From NCBI RefSeq assembly GCF_015062935.1, contig NZ_SUTM01000023.1, forward strand, positions 1 through 45,292: 45,292 nucleotides of DNA, in the 5' to 3' direction. Every line of letters begins with the position of its first letter. Positions within the stretch are counted from its first letter, which is position 1. The stretch comes from Methanobrevibacter sp. Its GTDB lineage: Archaea > Methanobacteriota > Methanobacteria > Methanobacteriales > Methanobacteriaceae. This document shows positions 8,892-24,396 of the stretch, piece after piece. The translations under genes were made by a program, and so were the position numbers. The notes beneath the pieces were generated by a model, which searched no databases, was not told the DNA's origin, and worked only from the letters and a program-made list of their open reading frames with translations.

Positions 8892-8900
8892 CAAAATTCT

Positions 8901-8926
8901 TTAGGCATATCAAAACTTTTTTATAC
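8901..8926 (+). promoter_or_regulatory. Candidate DtxR-type operator and TATA box of the dtxR-like gene
   Basis: TTAGGCATATCAAA (8901-8914) lies immediately upstream of the TATA-like TTTTTTATAC ending at 8926. It is almost identical, in sequence and spacing, to the element in front of the structured RNA at 23199-23222. The left arm TTAGG resembles known DtxR/IdeR half-sites. This suggests autoregulation by the protein encoded next; it is inferred and not proven. Confidence 0.5.
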
Positions 8927-8971
8927 TTTCAACAATAAAATTTAAATCAATTGCATATGCTAGGTGGTTTA

Positions 8972-9688
8972 ATGGCTGATAGTAAAAATATTAGTGAAAA
9001 TATTGAAGAATACTTGGAAGTTCTCTATCGTAATGGAAGTAATGGGGAACAGGTTTCTACTACTACATTATCTAAAGAGCTTGGAATTGCTCCAGGTAGT
9101 GTAACTCAAATGCTTAAAAAATTAGAAGATTTAGGTTATATTACTTATACTCCTTATAAAGGTGCTGTTTTAACAGATGAGGGAATGAAAATAGCTCAAA
9201 AAATTACCAGAAAACACAGAATTCTTGAAAAGTTCCTGTTGGATGTTTTAAAAATTAAAGAAGAGAATGTTCATGACCAGGCCTGTGAAATGGAACACAC
9301 CTTATCTGATGAAGCTGAACGTGCATTATGTACAATGCTGCATCATCCTGACTTATGTCCTGATGACAATATTATTCCTGCATGTAATTTTGATTTTGAA
9401 AGCTGTCAGGAATGTTTCTCCCAAAAAGACTTTGATCAGATTATGAACAGGAAATTCAATTTATTGTCTATTTCTGAATTGAATTCTAATGCGGAAGGAA
9501 CCATATCATTCATTCGTGGAAGTTCAGAACTTTTAGATGAAATCTCAGCCTTGAATATTAAAATTGGTTCACATCTAAGCTATGAATATAATGAAAATCG
9601 TGTAGGCAACCATTATTTGGTTGTAATTGATGATGAAGAGTTAAATGTTCCATTGGAAATGGCTAATAATATTTTTATTAGAATTTAA
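8972..9688 (+). CDS. DtxR/MntR-family metal-dependent transcriptional regulator, 238 aa
   Basis: Three-part architecture. An N-terminal winged helix-turn-helix (LSKELGIAPGSVTQMLKKLE) is followed by a dimerisation and metal-binding domain (ITRKHRILEKFLLDVL, then the metal-site-like EMEHTLSDEAERAL). The C-terminal FeoA/SH3-like domain starts near residue 165. A linker rich in Cys (CPDDNIIPAC, CQECF) may bind an additional metal. The ATG at 8972 is chosen because AGGTGGTTT lies just upstream; the longer reading from 8951 would place that site inside the gene. Such proteins repress iron or manganese genes when metal is plentiful. Which metal it senses cannot be read here. It stands alone, with a matching operator-like site in its own promoter. 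Confidence 0.9.
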   Translation: MADSKNISENIEEYLEVLYRNGSNGEQVSTTTLSKELGIAPGSVTQMLKKLEDLGYITYTPYKGAVLTDEGMKIAQKITRKHRILEKFLLDVLKIKEENVHDQACEMEHTLSDEAERALCTMLHHPDLCPDDNIIPACNFDFESCQECFSQKDFDQIMNRKFNLLSISELNSNAEGTISFIRGSSELLDEISALNIKIGSHLSYEYNENRVGNHYLVVIDDEELNVPLEMANNIFIRI

Positions 9689-9713
9689 CTTTTATTTTCT
9701 TTTTTTACAAAAA

Positions 9714-9721
9714 TTTATATA
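9714..9721 (+). promoter_or_regulatory. TATA box of endA
   Basis: TTTATATA preceded by AAAAA, about 60 bases upstream of the ATG, within the short gap after the dtxR-like gene. Confidence 0.5.
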
Positions 9722-9779
9722 ACATTTATTTCAAAATTATTAGCATTAAATATAATTTATTTCTTTTTGCGGTGTTTTA

Positions 9780-10295
9780 ATGCGTGGAATTTTATCTGAT
9801 GAAATTGTTTCTATAAAAATTGAAGAAGGTAGTAAAAGGCCAATTGCTTTGCATGAAAAAAGCAAATTCGGTAAAATTGAGGCGGACAGTTTAAATCTTT
9901 CATTGATTGAAGCATGTTATCTGTTGGAAAAAGAACGCTTAAACATTTATGAAGATGATATAGAATGCAGCATAGGTTATCTCATTGACCTTTTAAAGGA
10001 GCAGAACAATTACGCTAAATATATAGTCTATCGTGATTTGAAGGATAGGGGCTATATTATTAAAACAGGCTTTAAATATGGTTCTGAATTCAGATTATAT
10101 GACCGTGGAAGGTCACCTGGTCAGGGACACTCTGATTTTTTAGTAAAAATTATTTTTGAAAATTACAGCATTGATGCTTTGGATTTTGCAAGTTATGTCA
10201 GGGTTTCCCACGGTGTAAATAAAAAACTTCTTCTGGCTATTGTTGATGATGACTTTGATATAACATACTATAATATCGAATGGACAAGACCTTAA
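9780..10295 (+). CDS. endA: tRNA-intron (splicing) endonuclease, 171 aa
   Basis: Homodimeric or homotetrameric-type archaeal splicing endonuclease that cuts bulge-helix-bulge motifs in pre-tRNA and pre-rRNA. The catalytic triad is visible with family spacing: Tyr107 (LYDRG), His117 (GQGHSDFLV) and Lys148 (VNKKLLLA), intervals of 10 and 31 as in the Methanocaldococcus enzyme. The length of 171 residues is normal for the short single-domain form. It has its own TATA box and is followed by trpS about 98 bases downstream. Confidence 0.95.
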   Translation: MRGILSDEIVSIKIEEGSKRPIALHEKSKFGKIEADSLNLSLIEACYLLEKERLNIYEDDIECSIGYLIDLLKEQNNYAKYIVYRDLKDRGYIIKTGFKYGSEFRLYDRGRSPGQGHSDFLVKIIFENYSIDALDFASYVRVSHGVNKKLLLAIVDDDFDITYYNIEWTRP

Positions 10296-21279: not shown

Positions 21280-22701
21280 TTGGATAATATTAGAAATGGT
21301 CGTTTTAAGACTGGAATGACTGATGAAGCAGCAGAATATACTTCATCACTTGAAGCTGACATGTTACTTTTTGAAGCTGATATAAAAACTAATTTTGCAC
21401 ACACTTCCATGTTAAAGCATGAAGGCATCATCGATGAGGAAATTGCAGATAAGATTTTATGCGCTTTGGATAATCTTAAGGAAGAAGGCTTTGAGGCTTT
21501 GGTTTTCGATGCATCCATTGAAGATGTTCACATGGCAATTGAAAATTATGTAACTTCCAAGATTGGTCCTGAAGCCGGTTTTATGCATACCGCAAAATCA
21601 CGTAACGATCAGGTCGCATGTGATGTGAGATTAGTTCTTCGTGGAATGATTGAGGAAATCCAAATTGGTATTTTAGAGTTTATGGAAGGATTAGTTGAAA
21701 TGGCAGGAGAACACCTGGAAGATGTTTTCATTGGTTTTACCCACTTGCAGCACGCTCAACCGATTACTATAGCTCATCATTTAATGGCTCATGTTCAAGC
21801 TCTCAAAAGGGATTATGAACGTTTAGCTGATACTTATAAACGTGTTAATTTAAATCCTTTAGGTTCAGCTGCTATGGCCACAACCAGTTTTCCGATAAAC
21901 AGGCAATTGACTACAGATTTACTTGGTTTTTATGCTTATCTTGAAAACTCCATGGACGGTGTTTCAGCACGTGATTTCATCACAGAAACTGTCTTTGATT
22001 TAGTATCTCTATCATCTACACTTGCTAAAATCTGTGAAGAGCTTGTTTTATGGAGTACTTATGAGTTCGGTATTATTGACATGGCAGATGAATATTCATC
22101 AACTTCTTCTATTATGCCGCAAAAGAAAAATCCTGACGTAGCTGAACTTGCAAGAGGAAAAACAAGTATTGCTACCGGTGAACTGATTACAATTCTAACT
22201 ATTCTTAAGGCAATTCCATATACCTACAATAGGGATTTGCAGGAAATCACTCCTCACTTATGGAATGCAGTTAAGGTTACCAAGGACACATTATCCATCG
22301 TAACTAAAATGCTGCTTTCAGTTGAGTTTAAGGTGGAAAGGTGTGCTGAACTTGCAGGTAAAAATTTTGCAACTGCAACCGATTTGGCCGACATTATGGT
22401 TCGTGAAAAACATATACCTTTCAGAACCGCTCATAAGATTGTTGGAAGGATTGTCAATGAAGCTACTGCCAATGAAATGGCGGAAGAGGACATTACATCA
22501 AAATTCATTGATGATATTGCAGTTGAATTGGGCTTTGATGAATTGAATTTAGCTGATGAGTTAATTCAAAAGGCTTTAAATCCTGCCGAAAATGTTAGAA
22601 TTAGGGCTGTACCTGGAGGTCCTGCTCCTGAAATGGTGGATATTGCCCGTAATAATATCAAAGTATTCTTGAATGAAGAATTTGAAAGACATGGAATTTA
22701 A
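21280..22701 (+). CDS. argH: Argininosuccinate lyase, 473 aa
   Basis: Splits argininosuccinate to arginine and fumarate, last step of arginine synthesis. Member of the fumarase/aspartase superfamily, with signature SSIMPQKKNPDVAELARG and FTHLQHAQPITIAHH. HTAKSRNDQV near residue 107 is the substrate loop. The start is TTG (MDNIRNGRFKTGM) after GAAGGGATT. Length normal. Its stop lies inside a hairpin with a T-run behind. Confidence 0.97.
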   Translation: MDNIRNGRFKTGMTDEAAEYTSSLEADMLLFEADIKTNFAHTSMLKHEGIIDEEIADKILCALDNLKEEGFEALVFDASIEDVHMAIENYVTSKIGPEAGFMHTAKSRNDQVACDVRLVLRGMIEEIQIGILEFMEGLVEMAGEHLEDVFIGFTHLQHAQPITIAHHLMAHVQALKRDYERLADTYKRVNLNPLGSAAMATTSFPINRQLTTDLLGFYAYLENSMDGVSARDFITETVFDLVSLSSTLAKICEELVLWSTYEFGIIDMADEYSSTSSIMPQKKNPDVAELARGKTSIATGELITILTILKAIPYTYNRDLQEITPHLWNAVKVTKDTLSIVTKMLLSVEFKVERCAELAGKNFATATDLADIMVREKHIPFRTAHKIVGRIVNEATANEMAEEDITSKFIDDIAVELGFDELNLADELIQKALNPAENVRIRAVPGGPAPEMVDIARNNIKVFLNEEFERHGI

Positions 22702-22737: not shown

Positions 22738-23202
22738 ATGAATTTTAAAAATGTTTTTCTGATTTTATGTATTTCTATTTTGCTTTTTAGTTTGTCTTCT
22801 GTTTTTGCTGAAAGTTTTGACTTGCAGGGAAATACCTTTGAAGTTCCACAGGGTTACTCCATTAATAAAACAAGCGCCCTTTCAACTAAAATGGTTAAAA
22901 ATAATAATACAAATTATACTGTTTTTGTAAGTGTTAATAATTTTACAGATTCCAATGCTTCAATCAATAGCCGGCAGGTTTCCGGATTCAGGTTTTTGGC
23001 TGAAGAAAATTTTGTTTCAGAAAATAATATTCCTGTAACTCAGCAAAATTATATTAAAAACGAATCTTATTACTCCTATTATTCATTTGATATTAATGGT
23101 GCGGGTTATCTTATTGGGTATTCATTTCCGGTTCATGATGATGATTTGGGGGATAAAGACAGTAATCCTGCATTAAAAATAATAGAATCCATTAATGTTT
23201 AG
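22738..23202 (+). CDS. Small secreted protein, 154 aa
   Basis: A hydrophobic N-terminus (MNFKNVFLILCISILLFSLSS with Ala-Glu after it) forms a signal peptide. The mature part has several N-x-S/T sites and patterns such as FEVPQGYSINKTSALST and YLIGYSFPVHDDD. Similar small secreted proteins recur in Methanobrevibacter genomes, but I cannot name a function. The ATG at 22738 is used because GTGATT lies 4 bases before it. Its stop TAG is part of the operator-like TTAGGCATACCTAA that precedes the structured RNA. Confidence 0.7.
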   Translation: MNFKNVFLILCISILLFSLSSVFAESFDLQGNTFEVPQGYSINKTSALSTKMVKNNNTNYTVFVSVNNFTDSNASINSRQVSGFRFLAEENFVSENNIPVTQQNYIKNESYYSYYSFDINGAGYLIGYSFPVHDDDLGDKDSNPALKIIESINV

Positions 23203-23222
23203 GCATACCTAAACTTTATATA
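23199..23222 (+). promoter_or_regulatory. Candidate DtxR-type operator and TATA box for the structured RNA
   Basis: TTAGGCATACCTAA (23199-23212) has inverted arms TTAGG and CCTAA, the half-sites expected for DtxR/IdeR-family proteins. TTTATATA (23215-23222) follows two bases later. The 17-base stretch from the T before TTAGG to the AAAC matches the dtxR-gene promoter element (8900-8916) at 15 positions. Predicted transcription start is about 23242-23246. Binding is inferred. Confidence 0.55.
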
Positions 23223-23241
23223 CTTATACGAACAAACTATA

Positions 23242-23371
23242 ATTGTGGATATAATCTTTTAGATTATTGAAGCATGATTTGCAAGGATGATAGGAAACTT
23301 ATTAAAGGTTCCTCAATGAATTCAATAAGTAAAGCTCAGCTCCTATTATCTCTCTTGCAAATCAATATAAA
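23242..23371 (+). ncRNA. Structured non-coding RNA, possible metal-regulated small RNA
   Basis: No coding frame is convincing here, yet the region is highly folded. A first hairpin is ATAATCT 23251-23257 with AGATTAT 23261-23267. A long nested stem follows: P1 pairs 23275-23285 with 23354-23364 (11 bp), P2 pairs 23286-23295 with 23341-23350 (10 bp, one G-U), and P3 pairs 23297-23303 with 23324-23330 (7 bp). The P3 loop is 20 bases and contains GGTTCCTCAATG. A T-rich end (TCTTATTTTTTAG) near 23371 overlaps the stop of the convergent KH/PP-loop gene. TATA box and operator-like site upstream support an independent transcript of about 130 bases. No Rfam family was recognised. The reverse strand cannot be ruled out but lacks a promoter of equal quality. 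Confidence 0.6.
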
Positions 23372-23373
23372 TC

Positions 23374-24396
23374 TTATTTTTTAGTTTTATAAAAACTCCA
23401 AATTAAATCAAGGGCTTCACCAGGCTCCAATGCACCTGAACGGGTTTCCCTCAATATTCTTTGTATGGAAAATTTCTTCATGTGTGGAAATTTTCTGTGA
23501 ACCTCATAAAGCAGAGGACATCCGAATCCTTTAAACTCCTTTAAATTATAGTTTCTGATTAAGGATTTTATCTCCTGTTTGCCAACGCTTAAACTTGCCG
23601 GCAGGTTCAATCGATATAATGAATCCTCCTGCAGATTTATGCATTGACTGCCAGTTGCAAGCATATCACCAAAGATAATTATTGGGATTTCTCTGTCTTT
23701 AGCATATTTTTTAACCAGTTCTCCGGTATTTTTTGAACATCTTCCGCAGGGATGGACATTGCCTGTAAATGACTCTTCAATAATGTCTGAATAATCTGCC
23801 GGAATGTATTCATGTTCTATGCCTAATCCTTCGGTAAGTGCCTTAATGTTTTGCTTAAATTGATTTGGCAGAATTATTGTTCCAGGATCAACTGTAACTG
23901 CAATAGGGTTAAATCCTAATTTTTTAGCTAAAATAAGTGAAAAACTGCTGTCAACACCTCCTGAAAGTGCAACAACAGCTTCAGTTTTTGGAGATTGATC
24001 GAATTCGTGTTCATTAAAATAATTGTCAAAATTAAAGCTGTAAATGTTTTCCAATTTATTTTCAATAGTTTTTTCCAGATTTGAAAGACCGACCAAGTCC
24101 AAATCCAGATTATGAACAGTTTTTTTGGATAGTTTCAATTTATACTCTTTATTTAAAAAGTCTCCAAATGATTCAACATGTATACTTTCAAGGCCTAACT
24201 TTTCTCTAAGCTTTCCAACTACCCAGCCGCCTTTTCCAATGATTGCTGATTTGTCAGGCCTGTCTTCTGTTATAATCCATAATTCATTGGTATTTTCATT
24301 AAAATATATCTTTTCAATGAAAATGTTTACCTTGTCATGGCCTATTTCTTCTCTGATTTTGTTAACTTCATCCAGAATGAATTGTTTTGTATACAT
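23374..24396 (-). CDS. KH-domain PP-loop ATPase, 340 aa
   Basis: The N-terminal third has a KH-type RNA-binding motif (IGKGGW at 53-58, within AIIGKGGWVVGKLREKLGL). The middle has an adenine-nucleotide alpha-hydrolase PP-loop, SGGVDS at 145-150, and a CGRC pair at 217-220. The C-terminal half contains GDMLATGSQC. This combination is that of tRNA-modifying or sulfur-transfer enzymes related to ThiI/TtuA-type proteins. The exact substrate is not readable. It is the last gene of a minus-strand run MFS-MarR-this gene, 9 bases after the MarR stop. Loss of the MFS promoter region could affect its expression. Confidence 0.82.
   Translation of the reverse strand: MYTKQFILDEVNKIREEIGHDKVNIFIEKIYFNENTNELWIITEDRPDKSAIIGKGGWVVGKLREKLGLESIHVESFGDFLNKEYKLKLSKKTVHNLDLDLVGLSNLEKTIENKLENIYSFNFDNYFNEHEFDQSPKTEAVVALSGGVDSSFSLILAKKLGFNPIAVTVDPGTIILPNQFKQNIKALTEGLGIEHEYIPADYSDIIEESFTGNVHPCGRCSKNTGELVKKYAKDREIPIIIFGDMLATGSQCINLQEDSLYRLNLPASLSVGKQEIKSLIRNYNLKEFKGFGCPLLYEVHRKFPHMKKFSIQRILRETRSGALEPGEALDLIWSFYKTKK

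Follow-up and report, generated by a model that had tools for sequence, protein, structure and literature searches.

A Conserved Structured RNA Behind a DtxR/IdeR-Type Operator in Methanobrevibacter: A Candidate Metal-Responsive Small RNA in Archaea

A stretch of 45,292 nucleotides from a Methanobrevibacter genome (the window) contains a structured non-coding RNA, RNA-A, behind a DtxR/IdeR-type operator and a TATA box; the family is strongly conserved in gut Methanobrevibacter and was previously uncatalogued. There is hardly any doubt, from comparative analysis, that RNA-A is a real conserved RNA and, on the same evidence, it is a new archaeal RNA family; Rfam, searched at gathering and relaxed thresholds, returned no family for it, the best weak match scoring 22.3 bits against a cut-off of 43. 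The explanation that we prefer as a whole, a DtxR-repressed RNA that would be induced by metal starvation and act in trans, is reasonably probable. The features of the RNA and its surroundings are as follows:

21280 to 22701, + strand: a gene that we take, from sequence similarity, to be argH (argininosuccinate lyase), the upstream neighbour (orthologue position in members)
23198 to 23213, + strand: DtxR/IdeR-type operator TTTAGGCATACCTAAA (sequence; checked in 49 members)
23215 to 23222, + strand: TATA box TTTATATA (sequence; member comparison)
23242 to 23366, + strand: RNA-A, structured non-coding RNA (match to covariance model R2, 108.5 bits, E 1.8e-20; model ends, not mapped transcript ends)
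23244 to 23274, + strand: 5' hairpin of RNA-A (helices 1 and 2 of alignment A4)
23275 to 23366, + strand: long stem of RNA-A with apical stem-loop (helices 3-6)
23308 to 23320, + strand: apical loop GUUCCUCAAUGAA, containing the anti-ribosome-binding-site sequence UUCCUC (alignments and member sequences)
23334 to 23341, + strand: invariant GCUCAGCU in the 3' internal loop (invariant columns in alignment A1; present in the divergent members examined)
23374 to 24396, − strand: convergent gene encoding a PP-loop ATPase whose N-terminal GKGG segment is KH-like (weak QueC match; KH by eye)

The minimum-energy fold of 23242-23371 consists of a leading 7-bp hairpin, a long stem of 11, 10 and 7 bp and an apical 5-bp hairpin, and thus contains all the nested stems and the leading hairpin that a first-pass annotation of the window had described. 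Its energy is −35.7 kcal/mol (z = −4.1), and one of 200 shuffled sequences was equally stable. The annotation's start at 23242 stands, while its end at 23371 is replaced by a conserved end that the covariance models place near 23366. Stems without compensatory changes in related genomes had been named as the observation that would speak against the RNA; in an alignment of 42 members, both partners have changed in 31 of the 39 pairs. In the 5' hairpin (helices 1 and 2) this holds for nine of nine pairs, with 97.5 and 99.2% of cells paired, and in the long stem (helices 3-6) for 21 of 24. Across the RNA 96.1% of cells are paired, where slid controls reach 34-48%; the covariation score of 0.352 compares with 0.137 for shuffled and at most 0.075 for slid alignments; on every measure, none of 500 shuffles reached the observed value. 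Since a model of the same structure was used to fit the alignment, the result leans towards that structure; even so, the controls lie very far below.

Across members the conserved RNA measures about 95-140 nt and comprises the 5' hairpin, the long stem, a variable apical loop and GCUCAGCU, which is the most conserved element and the sole invariant sequence. It lies on the 3' side of an internal loop within the frame AGAA..AC and GU..UUCU. The apical loop UUCCUCAAUGAAUUC is kept among close relatives and replaced in L028-L031 and in the most divergent members. In one copy (L026:1546-1714) the 5' hairpin and the long stem are separated by an additional insertion that has a stem of its own.

A nucleotide search of the region covered 139 Methanobacteriaceae genomes; about 30 of them, from the same genus, have the whole region, and many more have the operator and TATA portion alone. 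The set was extended by reading divergent loci and equivalent intergenic regions. All named contigs carrying the conserved core belong to Methanobrevibacter, including M. thaueri and ruminant-gut MAGs. A covariance search for the fold in Methanobrevibacter genomes had been put forward in the first-pass annotation; model R2, built from the 42 members and run on 152 genomes of the class, found the RNA once per genome in 49 genomes of the genus to which the window belongs, and had no match in the other 19 genera. Locus search added a member in genome G051, giving 50 genomes in total, and RNA-A is single-copy in every genome matched.

The promoter is conserved along with the RNA. The 14-mer that the annotation had noted lies at 23199-23212 and TTTATATA starts two bases after it. 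An operator of this type, 1-2 bases before the TATA box, precedes the RNA in all 49 members checked, 48 of them exact and one with a single substitution; among 48 members measured, 47 operators equal TTTAGGNNNNCCTAAA and the remaining one differs from it by a single substitution, with the TATA box beginning 1 or 2 bases further on. The G051 member (L218) also has an exact operator and TATA box. The 14-bp IdeR/DtxR consensus is TTAGGNNNNCCTAA (PMC8464063), and the RNA-A operator, beside its TATA box, matches this palindrome exactly. With one mismatch allowed, the 14-mer is expected 1.5 times per 45-kb window, so that alone it would not stand out. The exact composite of operator and TATA box, however, occurs at least once in 38 of 41 genomes of the genus, against none for a reversed-pattern control, and the window's genome has 23 TTAGGNNNNCCTAA sites against 7 for the control. 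In sister species and other relatives lacking RNA-A, the flanking genes are mostly kept and operator and RNA are both absent; since the two vanish together, the operator appears to serve RNA-A. Control by DtxR is well supported by this comparative evidence, namely the operator, the RNA and the sole DtxR gene of the genome, and we regard it as very probable.

These observations suggest a model whereby RNA-A is a stand-alone small-RNA gene repressed by a single DtxR-type metalloregulator. Metal-bound DtxR, its metal most likely Fe2+, would occupy the operator beside the TATA box and block TBP/TFB, an arrangement that fits simple repression of TBP/TFB recruitment. A drop in metal would open the promoter and allow RNA-A to accumulate, and such induction by low metal is likely, if a little less so than DtxR control itself. 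The RNA might then regulate other RNAs or a protein in trans, the weaker part of the model; post-transcriptional regulation in trans is a somewhat better than even prospect, and a metal-sparing regulatory function is plausible; like RyhB, the RNA might act on mRNAs of iron proteins. The shared point of contact would be GCUCAGCU, to which many species could add masking of GAGGAA-type ribosome-binding sites by the UUCCUC loop. This loop is lineage-specific, conserved in most close relatives and replaced in divergent ones, and because divergent members lack UUCCUC it cannot be the family-wide function.

The main rival to antisense pairing is that a DtxR-controlled RNA-A works through protein binding, by sequestration or as a structured cofactor, with GCUCAGCU as the contact. 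Such a role would account for the pattern of conservation, in which loops vary but GCUCAGCU and the surrounding frame AGAA..AC / GU..GCUCAGCUUCU show little or no variation, and it agrees with the outcome of the target searches, none of which yielded recurrent pairing targets. A search for TTGAGGAA-N-ATG gave matches too numerous to interpret. With AGCTGAGC, searched in three genomes (10 of 10, 10 of 21 and 10 of 20 sites examined), a single coding site, at the mfnB-guaB junction, was common to two genomes in addition to the tRNA, and is not convincing; with TTCATTGAGGAAC, for which six genomes were searched allowing at most one mismatch and 30 of 43 sites were examined, only RNA-A itself recurred. 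Within the genomes searched and the part of the sites examined, these short seeds thus gave no convincing recurrent mRNA site complementary to GCUCAGCU or the UUCCUC loop. RNA-A also adjoins the gene for a protein with a KH-like segment, but this gene and argH are still paired in most genomes without RNA-A, so that the adjacency need not be functional, and conservation of the UUCCUC loop in many close relatives suggests pairing. We consider protein binding in place of pairing rather improbable.

The regulator itself is encoded in the window, together with a putative operator of its own:

8951 to 9688, + strand: sole DtxR-family metalloregulator of the genome (ORF call, likely ATG start at 8972; PF02742, 96.7 bits)
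8900 to 8915, + strand: degenerate operator TTTAGGCATATCAAAA ahead of a TTTTTTATA TATA-like box, before the dtxR gene (sequence only)

The DtxR-like protein invoked in the first-pass annotation does exist in the same genome: a PF02742 profile search of the genome gave a single match, at 8951-9688, and hence exactly one DtxR-family gene. Autoregulation of dtxR through TTTAGGCATATCAAAA is possible. Matches of the protein in phmmer include ScaR, IdeR, DtxR and MntR, the best ones including the manganese sensors ScaR, SloR and MntR, and its NCBIfam scores lie far below both the MntR and the DtxR cut-offs; because of these scores, "metal" is a safer wording than "iron". Both observations would fit a signal of manganese or another divalent metal acting on a real, operator-regulated RNA-A. 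Against this, the same operator is found ahead of feoB, both in the window's own genome and in a second one (L112), and in an alignment read by eye the HDQACEMEH segment and the RKHR motif upstream of it agree with the metal site of DtxR/IdeR, Cys included. This Cys is of the DtxR/IdeR type, MntR having Glu at that place. A signal other than iron is graded as unlikely, and iron is retained as the favoured metal in the model of DtxR repression.

RNA-A occupies one locus, between argH and the convergent KH/PP-loop ATPase gene, often with a small zinc-ribbon-like frame in between. The PP-loop gene stands beside it in nearly all members with enough flank. Could the RNA simply be a cis element, belonging either to argH as its terminator or structured 3' end, or to the convergent gene as an antisense tail lying across it? 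Most members do have only about 50-130 nt between the end of the argH orthologue and RNA-A downstream, and in the window the RNA ends 7 bases before the convergent stop codon. RNA-A, however, has its own invariant operator and TATA box; a separate gene stands between argH and RNA-A in the window and several relatives, where the distance is greater; the convergent gene lies 180-270 nt further on in many relatives; and in L025 and L027 the locus block is inverted with RNA-A kept. A cis element is thus very unlikely, and a stand-alone gene is the preferred reading. Mapped on the PP-loop protein tree, the presence of RNA-A requires 6 changes, against 16.8 for shuffled labels, and is compatible with a history of one gain and about five losses. 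The idea that the stems are chance inverted repeats in AT-rich intergenic DNA has virtually no likelihood: such DNA folds readily (shuffled versions of 23242-23371 average −21 kcal/mol), but conservation in 50 genomes and covariation far above all controls refute it.

Several other identities were considered and rejected. A riboswitch or other cis leader was set aside because the next gene is convergent, on the opposite strand, leaving no same-strand coding sequence directly downstream. As a small protein gene the locus offers longest frames of 6-55 aa, none common across members. Boxes C (RUGAUGA) and D (CUGA) of a Box C/D guide RNA are absent, by eye, from the conserved columns of alignment A1, and a tRNA/tmRNA search found none in the window. 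GCUCAGCU also occurs in the D-arm of an apparent tRNA-Met gene (antisense matches L135-L137; ARAGORN made no call); RNA-A lacks a partner strand that could form a D-stem, so this was judged a coincidence. A kink-turn in the 5' hairpin was dropped because ordinary pairs replace the internal loop in L020 and L025.

Methanogens rely strongly on iron-sulphur proteins, and in the guts of ruminants and humans Methanobrevibacter ranks among the main sources of methane. No archaeal small RNA that responds to metal under the control of a sensor is known to us, and a search of the open-access literature returned none. Archaeal DtxR regulons have reportedly been surveyed by Leyn and Rodionov in 2015. Among known systems, RNA-A most resembles the bacterial RNAs of the RyhB/FsrA type, including IsrR of Staphylococcus, an iron-sparing sRNA that uses C-rich loops (PMC9410917): it shares with them a predicted stand-alone gene behind a metal-sensor operator, genus-wide conservation with that operator and single-stranded pyrimidine-rich loops able to cover ribosome-binding sites. 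It differs from them in being archaeal, in having a DtxR-type and not a Fur-type sensor, in its invariant element GCUCAGCU and in lacking any Rfam relation. Precedent for an archaeal anti-ribosome-binding-site loop, an established mechanism, comes from sRNA154 of Methanosarcina mazei, likewise a lineage-conserved methanogen sRNA, in which one loop covers a ribosome-binding site and which is expressed under nutrient starvation; there the nutrient is nitrogen and not a metal, and no DtxR operator is reported in the sections cited (PMC5867862). The s479 RNA of Haloferax volcanii shares the metal theme as an archaeal sRNA tied to zinc transport, but is encoded between a CRISPR locus and Cas genes, is matured with Cas proteins and, in the sections cited, is not described as DtxR-regulated (PMC8155600). 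Like other DtxR/IdeR regulons, the predicted one of Methanobrevibacter has the 14-bp TTAGGNNNNCCTAA operator (PMC8464063) and feoB behind it; unlike the usual ones it includes a non-coding RNA gene, and apparently several. Archaea thus probably switch on regulatory RNA when iron or a similar metal is short, as bacteria do, and RNA-A offers a genus-level probe, comprising promoter, regulator and fold, for whether they evolved RNA-based metal sparing independently.

Strict operator sites in relatives precede, besides RNA-A, an RNA upstream of argG, a frame of about 20 aa, a methyltransferase-like gene, a P-type ATPase-like gene of putative metal type and an ABC transporter; the operator regulon also includes genes without an obvious metal role, a point against the preferred model. 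The other operator-led structured candidates, if transcribed, would form a multi-RNA metal response. It is a tentative and somewhat doubtful proposal that Methanobrevibacter has such a metal-starvation response, the first in archaea, in which one DtxR controls RNA-A, the argG-upstream RNA, a multicopy double-operator RNA and the microprotein of about 20 aa, which would jointly economise on iron when it is scarce, broadly in the way of RyhB, IsrR and FsrA, the last of these aided by its Fbp helper proteins. Two groups of these loci are:

L037:1501-1800; L065:2324-2630, 9590-9891 and 9250-9552 (G000, C7 and C19): double-operator loci
L044, about 1565-1640; L227, L229, L232, L233: loci of the microprotein of about 20 aa

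The second candidate RNA, of about 150 nt (AACTCTTAATTGGG...CCCCTCAATTAAGAGTT...TTCTTCTGC), lies behind the same operator 240-300 nt upstream of argG, at L033 (G000:C1, around 115110-115276, minus strand) and also at L125, L131, L209, L214, L217, L222 and L235; in the window's genome it stands about 300 nt ahead of argG and folds with z = −4.0. With RNA-A behind argH and this RNA before argG, both adjoin arginine genes. In the multicopy non-coding loci, operator-TATA-operator leads into several hairpins and into CUCUCC stretches that are exposed; the candidate RNAs of these loci fold with z = −1.7, −4.9 and −3.8. In genus g9, what follows the double operator is a small basic frame, MGRTKSGICGKKQ... 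(L101, L104). The conserved microprotein (MIIGIENLKEKQKEKEESE-like), with a GGAGG-type ribosome-binding site, stands behind a strict operator and TATA box in several genomes, and the methyltransferase-like gene (MNLEGVEKTMLLTLFAKAQHSQ...) directly behind a strict operator in L043 (G000:C10:18670), L213, L216 and L237. At L036:1495-1570 (the end of G000:C6), operator-TATA-operator is followed by a hairpin, GAGGAACAAATTA..TAATTTGTTCCTC, and a T run; this hairpin and the RNA-A loop have GUUCCUC in common.
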